A stretch of 64,000 nucleotides of DNA from Bacteroidota bacterium (GTDB lineage Bacteria > Bacteroidota > Bacteroidia > B-17B0 > Aurantibacillaceae). Below are positions 5,743 through 40,546 of the stretch, piece by piece; the first letter of the stretch is position 1; each line of letters starts with the position of its first letter. The notes under the pieces were generated by a model. It worked only from the letters and a program-made list of their open reading frames with translations, was not told the DNA's origin and searched no databases. A program made the translations under genes and the position numbers. The stretch lies in contig CAUJCR010000015.1 in NCBI GenBank assembly GCA_963169355.1, positions 1 to 64,000 on the forward strand, given 5' to 3'.

Positions 5743-7311
5743 TTATTTAATTTCTAATTTAAGTACTTTAGAATCGCCTCCACCTGCTTTTAACCTGTCT
5801 AAAATTAAATTCTCACTCATAGATTCGAAAGAGCTTGGATATAATTTAATTTTTTCCTTCCTAATGTCAAATAAAGATTGTTTGGTCATTTTGCCTTGTT
5901 TATCAATTTTAACACAAGTTAAATAACCACCTGCTCCCGCTCTGTGTGGTGCAGGTTTTTCAGTTAAAGGTAAATCTATGTTTTTAGCGTTATCTAAATA
6001 TAAAAACAAATCTTCTCCTTTAAATATATGATGATGAAATCCTAAATCTCTAATATTCGATCCAGATTGATTTTTTGGAATTTTGTTGCACCACAATGTT
6101 TTCCCATCTTTATCGGCTTTTATCACAATAATGTTATTATAATGATATTCATACGTTGTAGAGGTTGATGAACCATTACGGGTTGTATGTACATCAACCC
6201 AAGATTCTTCACCTATTACCATTAAACTTCCATCAGGATAAAACACTACTTTTCTAAAATTTAAATTGTTGGCTTCTAATTTCCCTTTATCTTCTTTTTT
6301 ATCCATTTTTCTTCGAGAATATTCCGATTCAAATGCTTTAAGCGTTTCTACTGGAATTGGACAATATGTAGTTTTTAAATTTTTCACAGCACTATTATCA
6401 TCTAATTCAAGTCGAATTAAAAATGCCCCCTCTACAGTAGTAGAATACTTACGATCTGAATAATAGCCTACAATTACAATATTACGATTTAAGTCTTCGG
6501 ATAATAAAACTGTGCTAACGTATTTATTATCTAAATTAATTTTTATAGCTTGTATGGTGTTATTACTTTGATTTACTCGCATAAGTTCATAACGCATAGC
6601 ATCTTTATGTTCTCTATCCACCTCTCCATCTATGGCATTATTAATTTTTACCTCGGCTAACATATAGATATTACCTCTCGAATCCACCTCAAAATCTTTA
6701 TTATTCATATCAGCTTCCGAATAAGGCATTTCTATTTCTCCGGCATAAATTTTTTTCATTTTGTCGTCAAATAAATTAAAGCCTATTATGTCTTTATTTA
6801 ATTTATCCCTTTTTTCTTCTGGCTTCTTTCTATAGGTTATCAACATCTTGGTACTATCGGCCGAATAATTGTATGTGTATTTTTCAGGTGGGGTTAACCT
6901 TCCTGTTTCTATTAACTTAATTTCTTTATCCGCAAATTTTAATTTCTTTTTATCAAATGGCAGAGCAAATAAACGTTCTGTTTCTGTGCTTCTATCCCAA
7001 GTAGAGAAAAACCAAAAATAATCGTCTTTTAAACTAAAAAAACCTTCATCAGTTGGATGCTTTTCAAATTCAGGAATTTCGGCAGTTACTGTTTTGGTTA
7101 CATTTTGAAAGGTTTTATCAAATACTTGAAAAACTAAATCTTTTTCATCTTTTTGTATATACACCTCGGCATACTCATCATTACTAAATTTATAAAATCC
7201 TTTATCACGATGTTTTTTTACATTTTCAAACTCATTACTATAACTATACGTTACTTTTTGAGCGTACATTTTTGTTGCACATAAGGCAATAATTGGTAAT
7301 ATTTTTTTCAT
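5743..7311 (-). CDS. Exported protein of unknown function, probable beta-propeller
   Basis: About 522 residues starting MKKILPIIALCATKMYAQ, a clear signal peptide. A second ATG 6 bases upstream (7317) is possible. The mature part is rich in repeated beta motifs such as DSRGNIYMLAEV, FYPDGSLMVIGE and DLFLYLDNA, which suggests a propeller or repeated-strand fold. I see no catalytic motif, sorting domain or lipobox. The protein is probably periplasmic or outer-membrane associated. I do not recognise a named family, and its neighbours give no functional lead. Confidence 0.75.
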   Translation of the reverse strand: MKKILPIIALCATKMYAQKVTYSYSNEFENVKKHRDKGFYKFSNDEYAEVYIQKDEKDLVFQVFDKTFQNVTKTVTAEIPEFEKHPTDEGFFSLKDDYFWFFSTWDRSTETERLFALPFDKKKLKFADKEIKLIETGRLTPPEKYTYNYSADSTKMLITYRKKPEEKRDKLNKDIIGFNLFDDKMKKIYAGEIEMPYSEADMNNKDFEVDSRGNIYMLAEVKINNAIDGEVDREHKDAMRYELMRVNQSNNTIQAIKINLDNKYVSTVLLSEDLNRNIVIVGYYSDRKYSTTVEGAFLIRLELDDNSAVKNLKTTYCPIPVETLKAFESEYSRRKMDKKEDKGKLEANNLNFRKVVFYPDGSLMVIGEESWVDVHTTRNGSSTSTTYEYHYNNIIVIKADKDGKTLWCNKIPKNQSGSNIRDLGFHHHIFKGEDLFLYLDNAKNIDLPLTEKPAPHRAGAGGYLTCVKIDKQGKMTKQSLFDIRKEKIKLYPSSFESMSENLILDRLKAGGGDSKVLKLEIK

Positions 7312-7364
7312 ATACATTTATTTTGAGTACCAATTTTAAAAAAAAAACGAAACCAACATTATAT

Positions 7365-7395
7365 TTTGTTATTTAATTGTTTCATTTAATTTTTG
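7365..7395 (+). promoter_or_regulatory. Candidate promoter of the SF1 helicase gene
   Basis: TTTG (7365-7368) is followed after 18 bases by TAATTTTTG (7387-7395), close to the Bacteroidota -33/-7 pattern. A purine-rich AGGGGG lies about 10 bases before the ATG at 7420. Confidence 0.35.
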
Positions 7396-7419
7396 CTAAT
7401 TTTAGGGGGTAGATTTGAC

Positions 7420-9357
7420 ATGGAACAAAGTATAAGTCGGTTAAAAAAATTAAAGGAGCTTTTGGTTATTGAACGAGAGGAGGATTATCTACAATACAAA
7501 GAGCAATTTTTAAAAGCAAATATTGAGCAACGAAAAAAAAATGGCGTTACTTGGTATCCTATTCACATTTTAAGTAACGAAATTGGTTATGCCGATTATG
7601 TTCATTTAGAAATAGAACGTACCTCGCAACTAGATACACCACATCAAATGAGTGTGGGTAAAAATGTGAGTTTGTTTTCTAATAAAAACCCTGACGAAAC
7701 CTTAGAAATAACGGGAACAATAAAACAATCAGGGAAAAACAAACTAAAAATAATTATGCACACCGATGAGTTGCCCGACTGGTGTTATGACGGGAAACTA
7801 GGTATAAACATACAATTTGACGACAATAGCTATCTTGAAATGCAGAAAGCATTAGATGAAGTGATTGCCGCAAAACATAACCGAGTAGCCGAATTAAGAG
7901 AAATTATAGAAGGTAACCTTCCTGCTAGTTTTGAAAATATTAACCAATCTTTAGTTATTCCACCTTTAAATAATTCGCAAAACAAAGCGGTTCAACATCT
8001 ATTATCTGCTCATGATATAGCCGTTGTACACGGTCCTCCAGGAACTGGAAAAACAACAACTATTGTACAAGCCATTCGCTTAGTATTGCAAACCGAAAAC
8101 CAAGTACTTGTGTGTGCTCCAACCAATACCGCCGTAGATTTAATTACCGAAAAATTATTAGAACAAGGTATTAGAGTGTTAAGAGTGGGACATCCTGCCC
8201 GTGTATCTGAAGAGTTGCAACGCTCCACTATTGATGGAAGCATACAAGAACACGAGCATTACAAAGACATTAAAAATCTTCGTAAAAATGCCGAAGAGTA
8301 TTTTAGAATGGCTGGAAAATACAAGCGTGTGTTTGGTAAGGAGGATGCTAAACAGCGTGCCTTGTATTACACCGAGGCAAAAAATTGTATCAAAGAATCT
8401 AAATTACTTGAAGATTATATTGTGTCGTCACTTTTTGAACAGGCACAAGTTATTTGTTGTACACCAGTTAATGCCCGTCATAAAGCTCTCCAAAAAAAAC
8501 AATTTAACACCCTCTTTTTTGATGAAGCGTCGCAAGCCCTAGAAGCTATAACTTGGATACCTTTATTAAAATGCAACCGTGTTATTTTTAGTGGCGATCA
8601 TTTTCAGTTACCACCCGTTGTAAAAAGTATAAAAGCTAAACAAGAAGGATTAGACCAAACCATATTAGACCGACTAACAAAACACCAATCTGTATCTTCG
8701 CTTTTAAATCGCCAATACCGAATGCATGAACACATTATGCAATTTAGTAATTCCTATTTTTACAATAATGAGTTAGAAGCCGATGTGAGTGTTAAAAATA
8801 CGCTACTATCTCTCGACGAAAATAATGAGTTGCTATCCAAACCCATTGAGTTAATAGATACCGCAGGCTGTAGTTTTGATGAATATCAAAATCCTGAAAC
8901 ATTAAGTTTATCAAATAAAGGCGAAGCAGAACTTGTTTTCAAACACTTAGAATTATTAATGCAACAGTATCAATACGCCAACGAAACACAACGATTGGAT
9001 ATTGGTATTATTTCGCCTTACAAAGAACAAATTGAATTGTTAAAAGAAAAATCACTTTCATTTAATAAATCTGATTATTTAATAAATGAACTCGATGTAA
9101 AAACCATTGATGGTTTTCAGGGCGAAGAAAGAGACGTGATTTATATTTCATTGGTAAGAAGTAATCCACAATCCGAAATTGGTTTTTTATCGGATATAAG
9201 GCGCATGAATGTTGCGCTAACAAGAGCCAAAAAGAAATTAGTTGTTATAATGGACACTGCCACTATTGGTAATCACCCATTTTATAAATCGTTTATCGAG
9301 TACGCCGAAAGCCATCAGTACTACAAATCAGCTTGGGAGTTTCAATACGAAGTTTAA
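7420..9357 (+). CDS. Superfamily 1B helicase/nuclease-type ATPase (IGHMBP2/DNA2-like)
   Basis: 645 residues from the ATG at 7420; the frame is also open from a TTG at 7393, but the ATG has a purine-rich sequence before it. The Walker A motif is HGPPGTGKTTTI at about 203-214. Walker B is FFDEASQAL (about 367-375). Later SF1 motifs are present as GDHFQLPPV, RQYRMHE, TIDGFQGEERD and MNVALTRAKKKLVVI. The N-terminal region resembles the beta-barrel of the UPF1/IGHMBP2 group. This family unwinds DNA or RNA 5' to 3'. The mnmD gene starts 7 bases after the stop, so the two are probably co-transcribed. Confidence 0.9.
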   Translation: MEQSISRLKKLKELLVIEREEDYLQYKEQFLKANIEQRKKNGVTWYPIHILSNEIGYADYVHLEIERTSQLDTPHQMSVGKNVSLFSNKNPDETLEITGTIKQSGKNKLKIIMHTDELPDWCYDGKLGINIQFDDNSYLEMQKALDEVIAAKHNRVAELREIIEGNLPASFENINQSLVIPPLNNSQNKAVQHLLSAHDIAVVHGPPGTGKTTTIVQAIRLVLQTENQVLVCAPTNTAVDLITEKLLEQGIRVLRVGHPARVSEELQRSTIDGSIQEHEHYKDIKNLRKNAEEYFRMAGKYKRVFGKEDAKQRALYYTEAKNCIKESKLLEDYIVSSLFEQAQVICCTPVNARHKALQKKQFNTLFFDEASQALEAITWIPLLKCNRVIFSGDHFQLPPVVKSIKAKQEGLDQTILDRLTKHQSVSSLLNRQYRMHEHIMQFSNSYFYNNELEADVSVKNTLLSLDENNELLSKPIELIDTAGCSFDEYQNPETLSLSNKGEAELVFKHLELLMQQYQYANETQRLDIGIISPYKEQIELLKEKSLSFNKSDYLINELDVKTIDGFQGEERDVIYISLVRSNPQSEIGFLSDIRRMNVALTRAKKKLVVIMDTATIGNHPFYKSFIEYAESHQYYKSAWEFQYEV

Positions 9358-9363
9358 TAAAAA

Positions 9364-10044
9364 ATGAACATACCATTTCATCAAACTAGCCTTATTAAAA
9401 CACGTGATGGTTCCAATTCATTATTTAGCGAACAGTTTAATACCTCGTTTCATTCCTTATTTGGCGCTATAGAAGAAAGCAAACATGTATTTATTGAACA
9501 AGGATTAAAACCTTTATTAAACACCGAACAAAAAGAAATTAGTATTATAGAAATAGGTTTTGGCACTGGATTAAACACCTTGTTAACCATACGCGAAGTG
9601 CTTCAAAAACCTATTACCATAAATTATCATGCCGTAGAGTTTTATCCTATTGACTTTGAAAAAATAAATGAACTGAATTATTTTAAAGATGATACAGCAT
9701 TAGATGCGTTATTTAAAAAAATTCATCATCAAGAATGGAATCAAACTCGGGCGGTGTTACCACATTTTAACTTAACAAAACATTGGCTACAAATTGAAAA
9801 ATTTAAAATACCCATTAAAGCCGATGTTATTTATTTTGATGCCTTTTCGCCAAGAGAACAACCAGAGTTGTGGACTGAAGACATTTTTTTAAACATGTAT
9901 TCAATGCTTAAATGGCCAGGTAAATTAGTTACTTATTGCGCCCAAGGTCAGATGAAACGAAATTTAAAATCGGCTGGATTTATTGTAAAAGCCCTACCCG
10001 GATTTGCAAACAAAAGAGAAATGACGATAGGGTTAAAGGTTTAG
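9364..10044 (+). CDS. mnmD: tRNA 5-aminomethyl-2-thiouridine methyltransferase, stand-alone MnmC N-domain (MnmD)
   Basis: 226 residues. A class I SAM-binding motif (IEIGFGTGLNTL, about 61-72) is followed by the family signature YFDAFSPREQPELWT and by CAQGQMKRNLKSAGF and PGFANKREM near the end. These match the methyltransferase half of MnmC, which makes mnm5s2U at the wobble position of some tRNAs. The FAD-dependent oxidoreductase half is absent, as in many Bacteroidota where the single-domain enzyme is the rule. The gene ends in open sequence with no clear terminator. Confidence 0.9.
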   Translation: MNIPFHQTSLIKTRDGSNSLFSEQFNTSFHSLFGAIEESKHVFIEQGLKPLLNTEQKEISIIEIGFGTGLNTLLTIREVLQKPITINYHAVEFYPIDFEKINELNYFKDDTALDALFKKIHHQEWNQTRAVLPHFNLTKHWLQIEKFKIPIKADVIYFDAFSPREQPELWTEDIFLNMYSMLKWPGKLVTYCAQGQMKRNLKSAGFIVKALPGFANKREMTIGLKV

Positions 10045-10115
10045 AGGAGGTAAAAAGTAATAAAAGCCTGTGTAGTTAAGTTATAAGAAGCTTACATAGT
10101 TTTTATAGTTATCTA

Positions 10116-10403
10116 TTATGTTAAGGAATATTTTATAGGAGATTTATCTCCGATACGTTTAATCTTTTTATTGGCTTCCAAATCAAGTTTTACCCACTCC
10201 ACATGCCACTCAACTGAACCCATGAATTTAATTTTATCCTTTTTCAAACCATCTGTAATAGAGTTAAGCAATTCTGTATGAGTAGAGTTACCATTGCTTT
10301 TTAAATTAGCCAGCAAGTATTTTGCTAAAAGTTCATACTTATCTTTGTCCATCCTAATTGCTTTTTTTCCAGCAGGGTGTTTTAGTTGTAACTTTTGTTC
10401 CAT
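10116..10403 (-). CDS. Small cytoplasmic protein, DUF6958-like
   Basis: 95 residues with no signal peptide or membrane segment. It opens with LKHPAGKKAIRMDKDKYELL, continues with a helix-rich centre, and ends with a VEWHVEWVKLDLEANKKIKRI block. The order HPAGK..., KYE..., W..KLDLEA...I.R resembles my memory of the DUF6958 family, which looks like a winged-helix fold. The function is unknown. It stands alone on the minus strand between two unrelated genes. Confidence 0.7.
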   Translation of the reverse strand: MEQKLQLKHPAGKKAIRMDKDKYELLAKYLLANLKSNGNSTHTELLNSITDGLKKDKIKFMGSVEWHVEWVKLDLEANKKIKRIGDKSPIKYSLT

Positions 10404-10522
10404 TGTTCGTTAAAAAACTTGCTTTCATTAAAACAAGCTGTTTGTTCTTTATGAATTAAATGTACAAATAAAATTAGACTTCTAACTCTCTCACAAAAAA
10501 AACAAAATGTTTAACATACAAA

Positions 10523-10557
10523 AAAGGGTTGCCTCCCCCCTTTTAAGACAACCCTTT
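10523..10557 (-). terminator. Terminator of the sulfur-relay operon
   Basis: Arms AAAGGGTTG (minus strand of 10549-10557) and CAACCCTTT (minus strand of 10523-10531) form a strong stem, followed on the minus strand by a short T-run. It lies about 25 bases past the operon's last stop codon. Just before that stop codon, 10561-10578 reads TTATACCAAATATAACTA, which matches one end of the MITE at 28970. Confidence 0.85.
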
Positions 10558-10582
10558 GTGTTATACCAAATATAACTACTAT

Positions 10583-11314
10583 TTATTGTAATTGCGCTAC
10601 TACACCTTCCTTTGCTATGTAGCCAGAATGATTCCATGTTAAAGCCTTATTCTTATATATTTGAAGAACAGGCAGAGCATCAATTTTTAAGTCTTTACAC
10701 AGTTGTTGATTATTGTCGGCATTAATTCGAATTACCTCTACCTTATCTGCCATTTCTTTAGAAATTTCTTCTAAGTAAGGTTTCATTTTTTTACAAGGTG
10801 CACACCAATCAGCATAAAAATCTACTAAAACTATTTTATCAGAATTAACTAGCTCATTAAATTTATCCATGGTAAGCTCCTCTGCCCTAGCTTTAGAGGT
10901 TGTTTGTGAAGTGGTTTCAGTGGTTTCTGGCAAATCGGCGCCACGCCATTTCATAATACCGCCACTTAATTCATATACTTGAGTAAAGCCGTTAGAGCGC
11001 ATATAACTTGTGGCTGATGAACTTCTGCCTCCACTTAAGCAATATACAAATACAGGCTTAGATTTATCTAATGTAGCCACTTCGTTTTCAAAATTACTAC
11101 CATTCCAATTAAAATTCTTGGCATTTTGCAAATGCCCCTTTTCAAATTCTTCAGGTGTTCTCACATCAATGATTGGAGCATCTGGCATTTGATTTATTTT
11201 TTCAGAAAATTCAATAGCCGAAAGATTAAACTGTCCATTGGCTGTATTGCTACCACAACTCATCATTAAGATAAATAGCATAACGCTGGTGGTAATAAAA
11301 AATAATTGTTTCAT
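10583..11314 (-). CDS. Lipoprotein fusing a rhodanese domain and a thioredoxin domain
   Basis: 243 residues. The signal peptide ends in a lipobox-like MMSC with Cys20, so the protein is probably anchored in the periplasm. The first domain is a rhodanese (IIDVRTPEEFEKGH at 48-61, active-site loop CLSGGRS with Cys92). The second is a thioredoxin with WCAPC (Cys171, Cys174). The fusion suggests a sulfur carrier whose persulfide is reduced by its own thioredoxin half. It is the last gene of the operon and is followed by a strong terminator. Whether the substrate is thiosulfate, a polysulfide or a protein persulfide cannot be told. Confidence 0.92.
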   Translation of the reverse strand: MKQLFFITTSVMLFILMMSCGSNTANGQFNLSAIEFSEKINQMPDAPIIDVRTPEEFEKGHLQNAKNFNWNGSNFENEVATLDKSKPVFVYCLSGGRSSSATSYMRSNGFTQVYELSGGIMKWRGADLPETTETTSQTTSKARAEELTMDKFNELVNSDKIVLVDFYADWCAPCKKMKPYLEEISKEMADKVEVIRINADNNQQLCKDLKIDALPVLQIYKNKALTWNHSGYIAKEGVVAQLQ

Positions 11315-11326
11315 CGTTTTTAATTT

Positions 11327-11641
11327 TTATAAATATTGGTTTATTACTTGTAATAACTGTTGAGCAGGCACTACGCCAGCTTGCCTCCATTTTACTTCAT
11401 TATTCTTAAAAAGCAAAAGTGCCGGAACACCTTGTATTTTATATGCTGATGCTAACATAGGATTTTTGTCCACATCAATTTTTATAATTGTAGCATTATC
11501 TCCTATCTTATTTTTCAACTCTTCCAGTATAGGCGCCATCATCTTGCAAGGACCACACCATTCTGCAAAAAAATCAATTAATACTGGTTTGTTTCCAGCT
11601 ATAAGCTCCGAAAATGTTTTTGGTTTATCTGTCATATTCAT
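11327..11641 (-). CDS. Thioredoxin
   Basis: 104 residues with the classic [11 protein letters not shown] active site (Cys29, Cys32) and the cis-proline loop GVPAL. There is no signal peptide, so it is cytoplasmic. It lies 12 bases before the rhodanese-thioredoxin lipoprotein and directly after a small membrane protein gene. That placement suggests it reduces persulfides made by the rhodaneses of the same operon. Confidence 0.93.
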
Positions 11642-11642
11642 T

Positions 11643-11894
11643 CTATTTTACATCATTATCCGTTATTTCTTTTGTACGATTTATGGACTTTTGAGACGTT
11701 GTATCACAAGTGCCTCCATAACAATTTCCGGATGCACAGCCAAAAGCAAAAACACCCATAGAGGTTAAATATAAGCCAAGCAATATCCCCAACCATTCTC
11801 TTTGCATTATACTTTGTACAATGACAACAATACCTAGTATGAGGTATAAAACTCGCATATAATTCCAACCAGTTAAAATTCTTTCTTTCATCAT
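11643..11894 (-). CDS. Small membrane protein with Cys-rich motif, DUF2892-like
   Basis: About 83 residues with two hydrophobic helices ([17 protein letters not shown] and [15 protein letters not shown]) followed by a [12 protein letters not shown] segment. The fold resembles the YgaP membrane tail (DUF2892), which in other bacteria is attached to a rhodanese domain. Start choice is uncertain: a GTG at 11903 overlaps the preceding stop codon, and ATGs occur at 11894 and 11891. The gene sits between rhodanese and thioredoxin genes. Confidence 0.8.
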
Positions 11895-11902
11895 TGATAA
11901 CA

Positions 11903-12217
11903 CTATGATAATTTATTTTTTAAACTCATCCAGCCACCACCATTATGCACTTCTTTGTAGCCATTGGCTTTTAAAATACTCTTGGCAGACGCGCTACGCA
12001 TACCCGAAGCACAACAGGTAATAATCACTTTATCTTTTCTTAATTTTGAAAGGTTATGAGAAAGTTGTTGTAATGGAATATTATACGAACCTTTAATGTG
12101 CCCGCCTTGATACTCAGACGGCGTTCTTACATCAATAATTAATCCGCCATTTTTTACTATTTCTTTATAATCTACTTTTGGACCTAAGCCCAATAAATTT
12201 TTAATTAGTTGTATCAT
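11903..12217 (-). CDS. Rhodanese-like domain protein
   Basis: 104 residues. The rhodanese core shows LIIDVRTPSEYQGGH, IKGSYNIPL and the active-site loop CASGMRS with catalytic Cys69 preceded by another Cys. No signal peptide is convincing; the first 12 residues are hydrophobic but short. It is the second single-domain rhodanese in the operon and lies 18 bases after the first. Two near-neighbours of this kind suggest a sulfur-transfer relay, not two redundant detoxification enzymes. Confidence 0.92.
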   Translation of the reverse strand: MIQLIKNLLGLGPKVDYKEIVKNGGLIIDVRTPSEYQGGHIKGSYNIPLQQLSHNLSKLRKDKVIITCCASGMRSASAKSILKANGYKEVHNGGGWMSLKNKLS

Positions 12218-12235
12218 AATTTATTTATTAAAAGG

Positions 12236-12499
12236 TTAATTTTCATTTATTCTATAATTTACATCGAGCCAACTACCAGCATTTTCACAGTCAAACCCTA
12301 AGCTTTGCAAATAAGCAGCTGCTTGCCCACTTCTTCCGCCACTAGCACAACATAATAAAATTGGCTGTTCTAGTTTCTTAATTTCATCAATACGAGATTG
12401 AATTTCCTGTAGCGGGATATTGATACTACCCACAACATGACCACCTCTAAACTCATCACGAGTTCTTACATCAATAATTGTTATTTTGTTATTTTTCAT
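12236..12499 (-). CDS. Rhodanese-like domain protein, minimal
   Basis: 87 residues, a minimal rhodanese with IIDVRTRDEFRGGH at 8-21 and the active loop CASGGRS (Cys51), again preceded by a second Cys. It is cytoplasmic. Its start overlaps the end of the DUF6132 gene by 11 bases, which points to translational coupling. The CC-A-S-G pattern is shared with the neighbouring rhodanese. Confidence 0.92.
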   Translation of the reverse strand: MKNNKITIIDVRTRDEFRGGHVVGSINIPLQEIQSRIDEIKKLEQPILLCCASGGRSGQAAAYLQSLGFDCENAGSWLDVNYRINEN

Positions 12500-34571: not shown

Positions 34572-35882
34572 CTAAATTCCAAGTTCTTTAGCTTGCTGAG
34601 AAGATTTACTTGGATTCCAACTATCCTCATAAGATTTCTTAAAGAAGAACTCTTGCACATAAGCTATGGAGCGAACAAATCTTAAATAAAAACCAAAATA
34701 AAAAACCATACAAGGTAAATAAGGTAAGAAATAGTAAACTGGCGCATTTTTACGATTTCTAAACAAAGAGAAAATTAAGAACTTAAGGAAGTTGTTGGTA
34801 GTATAAAGTAAGATATTAAATGGGAATATAAATCCTAACAAAGATGTGTAATTGATAACCATATCAAATAAATAAATCCACCATTTAATGTTTAGTATAA
34901 TATTGTAGGTAATGTTTTCTGCACTCGATACAAAATTTGAGAATCGAAAAGTAGCATTGGGATAAAATACATCTTTATGTTTCCTTACACGAAATCGAAT
35001 AATTGATTTATCCCATCTTAATCTTTGCTTAACTAATTTTTTAAAGGTACTTGGTACACTTGTTTGACATACAGCCTCTGGTTCAAATTTAATAAGATAG
35101 CCCAGCTTTCTTAATTTCACGGTTATATCGCCATCTAATCCAGGTCCAATATCCCAACCACCTACTCTATCTAAAGCCTCTCTTTTAAAAGCTCCAAATG
35201 CTCCAGACACTAAACGATAAATACCCAATGAACTAGAAGTAATACGACCTACCGAAATGGTATCAGAATACTCAATAGCTTGTAGAGTAGCACATAAACT
35301 TTCTTTATAATTTCTTACTAAAATATTCCCACCCACAGCGCCTACATTTTCTTCTAAGTAAAAAGGAATAATAATTTTTTCAATGGCATCATTATCATAA
35401 CTACAATCAGCATCTAAATGAACAACAATACTTCCTTTTGAAAAACGATAACCTAAGTTGGCAGCAGAGGCTTTTCCTCCACGAACATCGTTACGTAAAA
35501 ACAAATCAATTAATCCATTTCTTTGTAAGCTTTTACAAATTTGTTCAGTATCGTCATCCGAACCATCATCTATAACAATAAATTCAAAATTTTGATAGGT
35601 TTGTTCCTTTAAGGAATTTACCAGTTTAAAGATGTGCTTTCCCTCATTTTTTCCAGGAACAATAATTGAAACAAATGGTCTTTCAATAAATAATCTTCTG
35701 CGAGCATTTGCATACAATTCATTGCGTTTTTTTTCACGTAATTTCCAAACTAATAAAACGGCTAACTCAAAAATAAAGAAGCGTGCAAATTCAAAAAACA
35801 CAAAGAACCAAAAAATTCGAATGAGTTTTGTAGGACCAACCTCAGTTATATAATTAAAAAAATTATCTAAGGCTTCTATCAT
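34572..35882 (-). CDS. Membrane glycosyltransferase family 2, polysaccharide synthase
   Basis: 436 residues. A membrane helix near the N-terminus is followed by a GT-A domain with the processive synthase motifs: IVIDDGSDDD, LDADCSYDN, GLDGDITVK and QRLRW (the Q-x-x-R-W motif). Several C-terminal helices follow (WWIYLFDMVINYTSLLGFIF and others). This pattern fits poly-N-acetylglucosamine or hyaluronan-type synthases. The start codon overlaps the stop of the TackOD1 gene by 4 bases (ATGA). It is the last gene of a four-gene operon, which suggests the polymer made here is exported by the products of the first two genes. Confidence 0.9.
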   Translation of the reverse strand: MIEALDNFFNYITEVGPTKLIRIFWFFVFFEFARFFIFELAVLLVWKLREKKRNELYANARRRLFIERPFVSIIVPGKNEGKHIFKLVNSLKEQTYQNFEFIVIDDGSDDDTEQICKSLQRNGLIDLFLRNDVRGGKASAANLGYRFSKGSIVVHLDADCSYDNDAIEKIIIPFYLEENVGAVGGNILVRNYKESLCATLQAIEYSDTISVGRITSSSLGIYRLVSGAFGAFKREALDRVGGWDIGPGLDGDITVKLRKLGYLIKFEPEAVCQTSVPSTFKKLVKQRLRWDKSIIRFRVRKHKDVFYPNATFRFSNFVSSAENITYNIILNIKWWIYLFDMVINYTSLLGFIFPFNILLYTTNNFLKFLIFSLFRNRKNAPVYYFLPYLPCMVFYFGFYLRFVRSIAYVQEFFFKKSYEDSWNPSKSSQQAKELGI

Positions 35883-37321
35883 GCTTTTTCAACCAAATCT
35901 TTAATAATATTTTGGATTTGTTTGTCGAAACTTACTTCCTTACTAATAGATGCCACATGAGTTGCTATTTCAAGTTGAAAACGGTCAAAATTATTCATAA
36001 CCAATTCTTCAATCATATCGGTAATTTTCATAACCATAAAATTAGAATTCTCTAATGTTTCATCATTGATACACACAGAAATAACCGATGGATTATTGAT
36101 GCAAATAAAATCAGCAGGTGTAATATTAGATCGAATCATCGCTACAAACTCCGACAATAATGATTTTTCTTTTGAGCGCCCTATTGCACGATATAAATCA
36201 AAGATATTAGTAAAATAAAACACAACTATATTTGAATTTAAACTAGCATTAGCTTTCATACGCTCCTGTTCATAATGCATCATCGTAGCAAACATCTTGG
36301 TATTTAATGTCCCTACAACCTCATCACTTAAAGCATAATCAGATGAAGCAATTCCGCTTAGGGCTGAAGTTCTACCTTTTTTAGTTAATTTATATACATT
36401 AATATTTTTCGACACTAAAAATTGTACATCTGTATCAGTTGCACATTGAATACATTTAGCCTTTACTGTATAATCTTGAAACACTTCATTGCAATTTTGA
36501 CAGTGATTGATAATTGAAGGTTTATCATAATCCACACCAATGTGTCTTAAATTCTTAGTGCATTTTGGACAATTTAAAACAGTATCTATATTATTTTTAA
36601 AATCACTTATTGCACCAATGTATCCACAAGGGAAGTGATGAACTAAATCCTCCGAACGCATATTAGCCGAATTACAATTAGGGCAAATTTCTCTATAAGA
36701 TAAATGTCCGCCTTTGCAATTACTACATAAATAAACTCTGTCGTAAAAGTCTGGCCAAATTAAATTTTCTTTTTCAGCCCATTCTAATATTTCTAAAACT
36801 TTCGCTTCTTCAAAAGCATCATAATTAACCGAAACTATCGGGTAACTATAACCAATTGAAGAATTCATATCAGCATGTGGTTTCAAATTGTTTACACCTC
36901 TTGTAAACATAAAATTTAAAACCTTTTTAAATATTTGAATCTCAATAGAACTTGATGCCGATTGTTCTAGTTGCGTTATACGCATCTGAATTTGATTAAT
37001 ATCGTTAATAGTTTCTGGAATCTGTTCAAATGAAACGACTGAACCATCTGTTAATTCCTTGATATATGGATCATCATTATCTCTATTATTAATTAAAAAA
37101 ATAGGCTTTAAATAGAATTCAATTTTAGAGTGTGATCTAAATTTTTTAATAATAATTCGTGTAAAATCAACGTCTCTAGCATCTAATATGATAGCATCAT
37201 AATTTTCATATTGCTCTATCATAAGCGAACTAAATGATTCAATAAAATAAAATGATTTATTGAAAAATGTAATCACATTATCTTTAAATTCAATTTTGTC
37301 TTTTGCTATTTTATTAATCAT
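35879..37321 (-). CDS. TackOD1-like zinc-ribbon protein with degenerate GGDEF domain
   Basis: 480 residues and no signal peptide. The first 120 or so residues look like a receiver-type domain (YDAIILDARDVDFTR). A zinc-ribbon array follows with five CxxC pairs (CSNC, CPNC, CPKC, CQNC, CIQC), which I match to the TackOD1 domain by pattern. The C-terminal 170 residues resemble a GGDEF fold, but the signature loop reads INNPSVISVCIND, so it cannot make c-di-GMP. It may be a binding or regulatory subunit of the synthase. It is packed tightly between the HlyD-like and GT2 genes. Confidence 0.78.
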   Translation of the reverse strand: MINKIAKDKIEFKDNVITFFNKSFYFIESFSSLMIEQYENYDAIILDARDVDFTRIIIKKFRSHSKIEFYLKPIFLINNRDNDDPYIKELTDGSVVSFEQIPETINDINQIQMRITQLEQSASSSIEIQIFKKVLNFMFTRGVNNLKPHADMNSSIGYSYPIVSVNYDAFEEAKVLEILEWAEKENLIWPDFYDRVYLCSNCKGGHLSYREICPNCNSANMRSEDLVHHFPCGYIGAISDFKNNIDTVLNCPKCTKNLRHIGVDYDKPSIINHCQNCNEVFQDYTVKAKCIQCATDTDVQFLVSKNINVYKLTKKGRTSALSGIASSDYALSDEVVGTLNTKMFATMMHYEQERMKANASLNSNIVVFYFTNIFDLYRAIGRSKEKSLLSEFVAMIRSNITPADFICINNPSVISVCINDETLENSNFMVMKITDMIEELVMNNFDRFQLEIATHVASISKEVSFDKQIQNIIKDLVEKA

Positions 37322-37324
37322 ATT

Positions 37325-38452
37325 TTAATTGAATTTTAATTTAGAAATATCTACACTCATTTTATAAAACGTTTTCCACTTCACAAATTCTGCCGAATCT
37401 TTAGGATAAATATCACCAGCTATACTTCGGGTGGTAGGCTCATATTTTTTCTGAAATTCTTCAGGTAAAGTATAAGTGGCAATATAAAATCGTTTAAGAA
37501 CTCCTACAGATGTAGTACCATCAGGAAAAGTTACATTAAATTCATCGCCAACTTTAAAATATCTTAAGTCTTCTTGCTCAAAAAAAGCTTTGATATAAGC
37601 TGGATGAGATTGATGTATGGAAATAATATCTTCTGTTTTCAAAACAGTTTCAAAATCATGGGCATAAATTCTAGTTGCAATTCCATTTACAGGTGATTTA
37701 AAATATTTTGGTTCCGTTAATAACTCTTCGCTAAACAATAGTTTTTGAGAATCATCCATATTACTACCGCCTCCGCCTGTTGATGAATAAATTCGTGGCG
37801 ACTTATATGTAGCCGAATTAACTTGCGGACCCAATGTTTTAATTAAACCATATAATTCGTTATTTTCTTTCTGTAATTTTTTATTGAGAGTTTCTAATTT
37901 TAAAATTTCATTTTGAACATAATCTAATCTTGTTTTTGGCAAAACATCTAGTATAACTTCATTTGTCAATCGTTTAATCTCACTTTTAAAAGTAGTTATT
38001 AAGCCTTCGTTTTCGGCAATATCTATATTATTTAAGGCGATTTTTTTCTTTATAGAAAAGATTTCTTTTACCCACCAATCGTCTTTTTTGTCTCCTACTA
38101 TTGAACCAATACTTATAGATTGCGAAGCACTATTACCATTAATATCATCATCTCTATCCAAAGCATAAGAAAACAAAGTATCATTAACTTGTATGCTATC
38201 TCCTTCATGAACTTTAAAATTAATAATGCGAGCATCATCTGTTAATCTAATTTTGGTACTTTCAATAATGACATGCCCATACGCATTTATATATGCAAAT
38301 TTGAATAAAAAGTAATATGCTAAAAATAGCAAGAACAATCCTAATAAGCATAGATATAAAATTCTATCCCAGTTACGTTGTTTCTTTTTTTTAACTTTCT
38401 CGTTTACAACTCTAATTAATGATTTATTTCTTTGAAAATTTATACTTTTCAT
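37325..38452 (-). CDS. HlyD-type membrane fusion protein
   Basis: 375 residues. A cytoplasmic N-terminus (about 30 residues, basic) and one membrane helix (ILYLCLLGLFLLFLAYYFLF) are followed by the periplasmic half: a lipoyl-like strand (GHVIIESTKIRLTDDARI..KVHEGDSIQVNDTLF), a long coiled-coil hairpin and a beta-barrel region (YFKSPVNGIATRIYAHD, FKVGDEFNVTFPDG). Such proteins bridge the inner and outer membranes. The start codon abuts the stop of the exporter-like gene. The partner is probably the TolC-like protein encoded just before it. Confidence 0.88.
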   Translation of the reverse strand: MKSINFQRNKSLIRVVNEKVKKKKQRNWDRILYLCLLGLFLLFLAYYFLFKFAYINAYGHVIIESTKIRLTDDARIINFKVHEGDSIQVNDTLFSYALDRDDDINGNSASQSISIGSIVGDKKDDWWVKEIFSIKKKIALNNIDIAENEGLITTFKSEIKRLTNEVILDVLPKTRLDYVQNEILKLETLNKKLQKENNELYGLIKTLGPQVNSATYKSPRIYSSTGGGGSNMDDSQKLLFSEELLTEPKYFKSPVNGIATRIYAHDFETVLKTEDIISIHQSHPAYIKAFFEQEDLRYFKVGDEFNVTFPDGTTSVGVLKRFYIATYTLPEEFQKKYEPTTRSIAGDIYPKDSAEFVKWKTFYKMSVDISKLKFN

Positions 38453-40546
38453 TTATTTGTCATCTTCATTTTTTATTTGAATACTTTGCTTATCAAATTG
38501 AATAAGATCATCTAAATCATGATAAGCTTTCTTCGTAATTTTTATTTTCTCAAACATGGTCTCCATCTCCGTTCTATTCTTAAAGTCTTTCGTTCTAAAT
38601 GCTAAAACACATTTATCACCTAGCAATTGCACTTCTTCAATCAATTTCTTATTTAAAAATTCTATATCTACATTCTCATAAGCCATCAGATAAATCAAAT
38701 TACAAACACTATTAATTTCTTTTAGTACATTTTCTGGGTAATTTAAAGGAATGGAAACAGATAACTCTAAATGATTAGCATCTGTAAATTGCTTAGCCTC
38801 TTTTAATAATTGTAGATACAAGTTAAAGTGCTTTTCTTTATCCTCTTTAAATCCTTCTAGTGTATGAGGTTCAATATCTAAATGAATTCCTTTTACTAAT
38901 TTTAATTCAGTATTCATTTTAAGTGTATCTAAATATCCCTTTATTCCATTAAATAATAATTTATTACTTCCAATCATTAAATGAATTGGGCTTGTATATT
39001 GCTGACGAATAAATTCATTTAATTGCAATAAATAACTCTTTGTAGGATGGTATGAGATAAGTAAAGGATTAAACTCATTAACCTTGCAAAATTCAGAAAT
39101 AACAGTTTGAGTATGATTCTTAAAAGCGTCACTCCAAATATAAATTGCCTTAAAGGGTGGATTTGTTGAAGCAATATCTAAGTTTGTTAAGTTTAATGGC
39201 TGTGTAAAATCAATAATATTAACGTTAGGAAACTTAGATTTTATATTAATCAATACCTTATATAGTTCTTGTTTTAAATCCAACAATTCTATGGCATTAC
39301 TCCAAAAATCATCTAATATAAATAATGCCGTGTTAGGATTAAATTCCACATCTCCTAGTTTTTGTTTCACGTCTTCTGTTCTTAGTAACTCTATATACAC
39401 CAAGCGTTTATGATATAAATTTTTAAATTGTTTTAATTTATACTGATATTCATAGTATAAATTGAGCAGAAAGCTCTGCGAGTTAACTGTTCGATTAGGG
39501 GCTTGAAAATTATTAATTTGTTGCTGTAGGAAATAATATTCTTTTTTATCCTTTTGATTTAAGGTTAATGGTGCCGATAAATTAAATCCAACCGAAACAT
39601 AAGATCTATCGGGCAGAGTCTGATTATACACATCATAATAACTATATCTAGTATAAGCCTTTAAACTCATTTCTTTAAAATAAGAACTTTGATATTTCGC
39701 AATTTTCGCATAACTTAATGTGTCATTTTGAATGCTATCATGTAACAAACAATGTTGAATTAATTTTTGAACATTAATATCAAGGATTGGTAAATCAACA
39801 TCATTTAAATGTCCTTGTCTTGTTCCAGCATCATTATAATTTTTATAAATATTATATTGAGCATTAATGTCCGTTGTGTTTTGAATTACTTTTAAATAAT
39901 TGTCTTTTGTAATGTGTTTAATTGTCCATAATTGCTCTATAATCCGAGATTGCTCGGTGTTTAAGTTTTGACGATGATTTAAAATCAATAACTTCTTATT
40001 ATTAAAATATCTTATAATCTCTTCGGTTTGAGATGCTTGAAAGGCTTCCAAATTTTCTCTCATTTGTTTTTTTAAAAGCATCTCACGTTCAAGCTTTAAT
40101 AATTTCAATTTTTGCTTATATTCAAACAAGCCATTATTTAATAAGTCCCAATCAATACCGGCAATGGCTCTTCTTTTAAAAACCACTATTTCCTCTGGGT
40201 CAACTAAAGGTGCTTTTAAGTTCTCTTGATAAGCTAATGTAAAGCGTACACCATGTTCTTTTTGATAAATTTGTTGTTGTACTTGATTAGACTTTAACAA
40301 TAAATTCTTATAATTATTTTGCTTTTCATCATCTGATATTTTAAAGGGTTCATTTATTAATTTAGCAGACGAATCAATAATTAAATTATCAAAAGTGGAA
40401 TTTTTATGATTTAACCATATTGTATTTAATTGCTGAATGTATTTAGTAACTACCGAATCAATAGATTGAGAAAATACTTGACATCTGATTCCGTTAAATA
40501 ACATCAGAATAAAAACAATAGCAATATACCGAAACCTAATCATCAA
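38453..40546 (-). CDS. Outer-membrane efflux (TolC-like) protein with a C-terminal glycoside-hydrolase-like domain
   Basis: 697 residues. A signal peptide (YIAIVFILMLFNGIRCQ) is followed by a TolC-like half: long helices rich in Leu, Lys and Gln (KLLKLEREMLLKKQMRENLE) and a strand block YVSVGFNLSAPLTL. After about residue 450 the sequence changes to an alpha/beta pattern with IYIWSDAF, HLMIGSNKLLF, KGIHLDIEPH (about 549-557), LELSVSIPL and YLMAYENVD. This resembles a TIM-barrel glycosidase of the GH18/PgaB sort, with DIE as the likely catalytic segment. The fusion is not one I know. It is the first gene of the operon. Confidence 0.75.
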   Translation of the reverse strand: MMIRFRYIAIVFILMLFNGIRCQVFSQSIDSVVTKYIQQLNTIWLNHKNSTFDNLIIDSSAKLINEPFKISDDEKQNNYKNLLLKSNQVQQQIYQKEHGVRFTLAYQENLKAPLVDPEEIVVFKRRAIAGIDWDLLNNGLFEYKQKLKLLKLEREMLLKKQMRENLEAFQASQTEEIIRYFNNKKLLILNHRQNLNTEQSRIIEQLWTIKHITKDNYLKVIQNTTDINAQYNIYKNYNDAGTRQGHLNDVDLPILDINVQKLIQHCLLHDSIQNDTLSYAKIAKYQSSYFKEMSLKAYTRYSYYDVYNQTLPDRSYVSVGFNLSAPLTLNQKDKKEYYFLQQQINNFQAPNRTVNSQSFLLNLYYEYQYKLKQFKNLYHKRLVYIELLRTEDVKQKLGDVEFNPNTALFILDDFWSNAIELLDLKQELYKVLINIKSKFPNVNIIDFTQPLNLTNLDIASTNPPFKAIYIWSDAFKNHTQTVISEFCKVNEFNPLLISYHPTKSYLLQLNEFIRQQYTSPIHLMIGSNKLLFNGIKGYLDTLKMNTELKLVKGIHLDIEPHTLEGFKEDKEKHFNLYLQLLKEAKQFTDANHLELSVSIPLNYPENVLKEINSVCNLIYLMAYENVDIEFLNKKLIEEVQLLGDKCVLAFRTKDFKNRTEMETMFEKIKITKKAYHDLDDLIQFDKQSIQIKNEDDK

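Follow-up and report, generated by a model that had tools for sequence, protein, structure and literature searches.

The window analyzed here, a 64,000-nt stretch of a Bacteroidota contig, carries on its minus strand a four-gene operon (positions 34572-40546) that is likely to encode a self-contained synthase-dependent exopolysaccharide system, in which the polymer would be trimmed and exported as originally proposed. In the direction of transcription, the genes encode a predicted TolC-type outer-membrane channel with a C-terminal GH18-like barrel (gene 1), an HlyD/EmrA-type membrane fusion protein (MFP; gene 2), a TackOD1 protein with a degenerate GGDEF domain (gene 3), and a processive-type family 2 glycosyltransferase (GT2) synthase (gene 4). 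The original prediction, made from the sequence of the window, had described four adjoining minus-strand genes with these parts, and the open reading frames (ORFs), profiles, and predicted structures all confirmed this description. The junctions between genes 1/2, 2/3, and 3/4 were 0, +3, and -4 bases, respectively, the last being an ATGA overlap.

Gene 1 gave no significant sequence match in Pfam, NCBIfam, or PDB (phmmer and profile searches). Therefore, the TolC and GH18 assignments rest on predicted folds and on relatives. The AlphaFold2 model of residues 1-466, built with 22 relatives (predicted local distance difference test [pLDDT] 80.2), predicts that the N-terminal part is a tandem helix-hairpin-helix channel of the TolC family. 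The top 29 rows returned by VIA for this model were all TolC-family proteins with Z scores of 16.9 to 11.1, and the first unrelated chain scored 6.6. Klebsiella TolC, for instance, was matched with a Z score of 16.9 and a root mean square deviation of 5.0 over 363 residues. Foldseek agreed with VIA, its top matches being TolC, OprM, CusC, and VceC. The Pfam OEP profile found no match in gene 1 of the window and was reached by the Aeromonas homologue described below (37 bits; cut-off, 22). Across the Pfam scans, weak matches to RWD, Prefoldin_3, RasGAP_C, and Imm9 were judged to be chance.

The original prediction had called the C-terminal part of gene 1 a glycoside-hydrolase-like domain, expected to be a barrel, and a barrel of that kind was found. 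The model of residues 460-697, built with 20 relatives (pLDDT 90.5), has eight strands alternating with helices and is thus predicted to be a (beta/alpha)8 barrel of the GH18/PgaB kind. The structures ranked at the top by VIA were GH18 proteins, the PgaB C-terminal domain (Z, 18.1), Cwp19, and SleL, with Z scores of about 17 to 18. Foldseek alone ranked the tryptophan synthase alpha chain first, a generic TIM-barrel match (template modeling score, about 0.55) that was set aside in favor of the GH18, PgaB, and Cwp19 structures ranked first by VIA. Pfam GH18 was reached by 3 of the 20 barrel relatives (best, 1.6e-6) and had no match in the window domain. When 15 barrel sequences from Bacteroidota, Pseudomonadota, and Bacillota were aligned, with identity down to 15%, the only invariant residues were a W, a G, H-x-D-x-E at strand 4, and M-x-Y at strand 6 (H96, D98, E100, M162, and Y164 in domain numbering). 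In gene 1, these motifs are HLDIE, the putative active site, and MAY, which contains the likewise invariant Tyr623. The strand-4 D-x-E and the strand-6 Tyr correspond to the catalytic Asp-x-Glu and Tyr positions of GH18.

A GH18-like family with the signature [GA]-[IVL]-H-x-D-[VIL]-E-P was also found free-standing in Paenibacillus, Priestia, and distant Bacteroidota (L082, 5971-6795; L083, 5995-6846; L120, 5777-7660; L121, 6120-7469). A GT4 glycosyltransferase lies near the Priestia gene, and two of the Bacillota proteins, when scanned, had no Pfam match. In three distant genomes with the barrel and no TackOD1, the barrel proteins were secreted and no GT2 or TolC partner was seen.

The other two parts of the putative conduit were assigned by profile. 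Gene 2 matched the MFP family in PDB (8dck, 2.2e-8; EmrA, 1.6e-7) and has one transmembrane helix at residues 31-49. Gene 4 matched PF00535 (1.1e-26) and scored 174.1 bits against the PgaC/IcaA equivalog TIGR03937, under its cut-off of 422.3; nevertheless, PgaC/IcaA was the best family for all four of the GT2s scanned. All 19 of the relatives aligned have residues D106, D157/D159, and D250/D252 and the QxxRW motif. Judged by these motifs and profiles, gene 4 is a processive-type GT2 with all catalytic motifs, closest to PgaC/IcaA. From its family and the GH18 relation of the barrel, the polymer of the window subtype is possibly, short of probably, of the N-acetylglucosamine (GlcNAc) type.

Gene 3 contains a TackOD1 domain well above threshold (181.7 bits; PF18551 cut-off, 32), the Cys residues of which were invariant in 27 relatives. 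The original prediction had proposed a dead GGDEF protein as the regulator of the synthase. A GGDEF-like domain lacking the motifs was indeed found, and in addition there is an N-terminal pseudo-receiver that the prediction did not mention. The receiver is degenerate in the window protein and intact in some relatives (in L045, PF00072 is matched at 6.3e-21). In most Bacteroidota of the same taxonomic order, gene 3 overlaps the start of the GT2 gene, which makes gene 3 a probable direct cytoplasmic regulator of the synthase. At six loci (L039 to L041 and L043 to L045), a separate ORF of about 110 to 120 aa resembling part of gene 3 lies just upstream of the TackOD1 gene. Together with the intact-looking receiver of the TackOD1 proteins at these loci, this ORF suggests a phosphorelay input.

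The expectation that the same four genes would be found together in other Bacteroidota was borne out. The order TolC-HlyD-TackOD1-GT2 was present in 14 of 14 loci recovered with gene 3 from genome contigs, 4 of which run into contig ends and are incomplete there. In a phylum-wide sample, all 12 distant Bacteroidota loci had adjacent TackOD1 and GT2 genes with the MFP and outer-membrane protein (OMP) genes upstream, some with inserted genes. Twenty loci from the same taxonomic order agreed, apart from those truncated at a contig end and one (L096) in which two ORFs make up the OMP; some of these loci are on the same contigs as the gene 3-recovered ones, and the sets are not independent. Because the block recurs in dozens of genomes and the genes flanking it in the window are shared at 0 of 26 loci, the linkage is far beyond chance. 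Within the taxonomic order, TackOD1 was found in 24 of 87 genomes and the barrel also in 24, with 23 shared (Fisher P = 9e-19, uncorrected for shared ancestry). The two genomes with only TackOD1 or only the barrel are both less than 80% complete.

A second subtype, in which the channel has no barrel, was represented by four loci (L035 to L038), which account for four of the five barrel-poor distant loci. The three that were examined gene by gene carry a TviB-like UDP-GlcNAc dehydrogenase (scanned in L035) and LytTR regulators. In genome G203 the two subtypes occur together, separated by 15 kb, and each subtype probably makes a different polymer. CheY-like regulators were also seen in this subtype, and in two of its loci (L036 and L038) a predicted lipoprotein of 654 to 656 aa lies between the adaptor and TackOD1.

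The system is not limited to Bacteroidota, as Pseudomonadota carry TackOD1-GT2-HlyD operons. The search for TackOD1 neighbors in Pseudomonadota covered plasmids; in all bacterial records examined that extend far enough, GT2 and HlyD genes come after TackOD1 (Plesiomonas, Photobacterium, Roseibium, Phyllobacterium [two], Aminobacter, Palleronia, Methylocystis, Alisedimentitalea, Rhodobacteraceae M382, and Aeromonas). A good example is the 29-kb mobilizable Aeromonas caviae plasmid pKAM329_3 (NZ_AP024139.1; L088), which at 6659-12481 has a complete TackOD1-GT2-TolC::GH-HlyD operon annotated with no more than the names diguanylate cyclase, glycosyltransferase, TolC, and HlyD. Its TolC::GH protein has 694 aa, a C-terminal barrel match at 4e-6, and the sequences VYLWD, GLHLDLE, and LMIY. 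In Methylocystis iwaonis (L078), the order is TackOD1-GT2-MFP-GH-TolC, and the barrel and a canonical TolC are separate genes. The stand-alone barrel (11393-12337) has a Tat-like signal and lies between the adaptor and TolC genes; only its C-terminal two thirds is annotated, as a hypothetical protein, and the annotated start is probably too late. That the same parts are fused in the window and in Aeromonas and split in Methylocystis is good evidence that the barrel and channel work together. Sugar-nucleotide enzymes, namely, a TviB-like UDP-GlcNAc dehydrogenase and GalE, were present in some operons. Two haloarchaeal plasmids (L075 and L076) encode TackOD1-only proteins of about 330 aa and have no glycosyltransferase gene close to them, and the TackOD1-GT2 link is therefore stated for bacteria only.

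Taken together, these features suggest how the system might work. The GT2 of gene 4, as its family and conserved motifs suggest, would use a cytoplasmic sugar nucleotide to build the polymer and extrude it through a membrane channel of its own. The HlyD-type adaptor, from its fold and linkage, would dock the synthase to a TolC-type trimer, forming a conduit through the periplasm and outer membrane. The C termini of TolC subunits face the periplasm, and thus the three barrels of a trimer would lie outside the conduit. In this periplasmic position beside the conduit, the GH18-like barrel may hydrolyze chains, either to remove those that fail to enter the channel or to determine how long the chains become. 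The idea that one polypeptide both exports and trims the polymer is consistent with the predicted fold and the conserved acidic residues. However, with the barrel in the periplasm and outside the channel, trimming in transit is not the sole option. Finally, gene 3, which is translationally coupled to the synthase gene, would bind the synthase and switch it on or off. Its input may be phosphorylation in the relatives with an intact receiver and another ligand or partner in the source species.

Several points weigh against this reading. The channel model is of middling confidence (pLDDT 80; predicted template modeling score, 0.67), no deacetylase or TPR (tetratricopeptide repeat) scaffold gene was found in the operon, and operon carriers make up less than one third of the genomes in the taxonomic order. 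The other points concern the barrel. Its single best structural match is an imaginal disc growth factor, a non-catalytic GH18 relative. Of the GH18 motif DxxDxDxE, the window sequence KGIHLDIE keeps only the last Asp and the Glu; the first Asp is missing and His is at -4. In addition, 5 of the 12 distant Bacteroidota loci have a channel (423 to 560 aa) without a full barrel or with a remnant only, which means that the barrel is an option and not a requirement. A barrel with two acidic positions replaced (by Lys or a variable residue and by His), most similar to a non-catalytic protein and dispensable in some lineages, might instead serve the same export machine as a non-catalytic scaffold that binds carbohydrate and guides or tethers the polymer at the outer membrane. 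We regard this as rather unlikely, however, because, despite low overall identity, the sequences from all three phyla keep the Asp (-2) and Glu (0) that carry out GH18 chemistry as well as the strand-6 Tyr and because free-standing secreted relatives exist, as they would for enzymes. We lean toward clearance or trimming of stray polymer by the barrel, by analogy with PgaB, BcsZ, and AlgL, the separate proteins that do the hydrolase job in known systems.

The cargo and the switch could also differ from those proposed here. TolC and HlyD proteins are general exporters, the GT2 falls under the PgaC equivalog cut-off, and the operon is without another polymer-modifying enzyme, all of which would suit a type I-like exporter of a glycolipid, modified lipid, or small glycoside, with the GT2 decorating the cargo. 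Such an exporter appears improbable, given that no ABC, MFS, or RND inner-membrane pump was found in the operon or in those of Pseudomonadota, which leaves the GT2 as the only inner-membrane partner. Moreover, QxxRW is a hallmark of processive synthases, and all four scanned GT2s, as noted, are nearest to PgaC/IcaA. With respect to the switch, gene 3 might be a cyclic di-GMP (c-di-GMP) receptor that activates the synthase, like PelD or PilZ proteins, as its C-terminal domain is GGDEF-like and the gammaproteobacterial homologues keep RDTD, which is RxxD-like and in the right place. But the window protein has no GGDEF motif, with NNPSV in its place and TPAD in the place of RxxD. Gene 4 has no PilZ domain, and neither GGDEF (PF00990) nor PilZ (PF07238) was found in a search of the whole genome, which is 97% complete. 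On these sequence grounds, c-di-GMP control is unlikely in the source organism, and we consider a c-di-GMP receptor role for gene 3 quite improbable.

The remaining comparison is with known systems. In Gram-negative synthase systems such as those for poly-GlcNAc (PNAG), Pel, alginate, and cellulose, the outer-membrane proteins are of the TPR kind, the hydrolases are separate, and control is by c-di-GMP. For PNAG and Pel, a hydrolase acts with an outer-membrane protein. No description of an operon like that of the window was found in the open-licence literature. The Thermosynechococcus cellulose system XcsA-XcsB(HlyD)-TolC, a proposed tripartite exporter described as unvalidated in a review, likewise combines a GT2, an HlyD-like adaptor, and a TolC-like channel and has an associated glycosidase, XcsC (Maeda 2018, reviewed in PMC12430437). 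There, however, the synthase carries PilZ/c-di-GMP control, the TolC gene lies at another place, and the endoglucanase is a protein of its own, whereas in the window a single operon encodes all parts, hydrolase and TolC form one polypeptide, and TackOD1 takes the place of PilZ. PgaABCD shares the PgaC-like GT2 and, in the C-terminal domain of PgaB, a similar barrel. Contact between PgaA and PgaB raises hydrolase activity 13-fold (PMC9384988), a precedent for coupling the cutter and the exit. In contrast to PgaABCD, the window channel is TolC-type rather than a PgaA-type TPR plus beta-barrel porin, with no other outer-membrane gene in the block, and no N-deacetylase domain was found in the four window proteins. 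PgaB (GH153) also lacks the second acid (PMC5933820), whereas the window barrel has a GH18-like DxE. The rhizobial BgsBA operon, which makes a mixed-linkage beta-glucan, pairs an HlyD-like protein with a GT2 synthase but has two genes only, binds c-di-GMP at the synthase C terminus, and has no TackOD1 and no hydrolase-TolC (PMC9495663). The TackOD1 proteins of Thaumarchaeota share the cysteine-rich domain, which in some of them follows a receiver domain, and are of obscure function in type IV pilus loci (PMC5847659), whereas the window TackOD1 goes with a GT2 synthase and a dead GGDEF. The system had been put forward as a candidate new one. Its novelty is lowered by the earlier XcsAB-TolC proposal (PMC12430437), whereas the fusion of TolC with a hydrolase, the occurrence in more than one phylum, and the TackOD1-GT2 link raise it.

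The features of the operon are collected in Table 1. Gene 1 opens with the codons TTG-ATG, and the likelier start is probably the ATG at 40543. The block is neighbored by metH and a malic-enzyme gene in the opposite direction, and it is therefore a single four-gene unit. A role as a defense system was dropped, as PADLOC gave no match.

Table 1. Genes, domains, and motifs of the operon (positions in the window)
Feature	Position	Strand	Basis or remark
Gene 1, TolC-type outer-membrane channel with C-terminal GH18-like barrel	38453..40546	minus	697 aa counted from TTG
Predicted signal peptide, gene 1 residues 1-26	40469..40546	minus	Hydropathy peak at residues 2-26
TolC-type channel domain, gene 1 residues about 62-450	39197..40363	minus	Two beta-hairpins and long paired helices (predicted)
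GH18-like (beta/alpha)8 barrel, gene 1 residues about 464-691	38474..39157	minus	Predicted fold, structural matches
HLDIE, His555-Glu559, putative active site at end of strand 4	38870..38884	minus	Invariance in relatives
Gene 2, HlyD/EmrA-type membrane fusion protein	37325..38452	minus	375 aa; directly abuts gene 1
Gene 3, pseudo-receiver, TackOD1, and degenerate GGDEF	35879..37321	minus	480 aa; cytoplasmic, no transmembrane segment
Pseudo-receiver domain, gene 3 residues about 15-120	36962..37279	minus	Profile match to REC structures, about 1e-3
TackOD1 zinc-cysteine domain, gene 3 residues 130-312	36386..36934	minus	PF18551, 1.4e-53
Degenerate GGDEF domain, gene 3 residues 329-473	35903..36337	minus	GGDEF-like by profile, 3.6e-6
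Gene 4, processive-type GT2 synthase, PgaC-like	34572..35882	minus	436 aa; hydrophobic segments at both ends
QRLRW motif of the synthase	35013..35027	minus	Sequence

The operon may thus represent a distinct cross-phylum machine, in which GT2, HlyD, and TolC are encoded in one operon, the hydrolase is part of the TolC subunit, and a TackOD1 receiver replaces c-di-GMP as the direct switch; we hold this view and its opposite in about equal balance. If true, it would provide the first role for TackOD1. The operon makes it testable whether HlyD-TolC conduits carry GT2-made polymers, as proposed in cyanobacteria, and the same holds for the reason why synthase systems include hydrolases and for the function of the widespread TackOD1 domain. 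A small mobilizable plasmid of Aeromonas carries the unit in full, which shows it to be compact and transferable between hosts.

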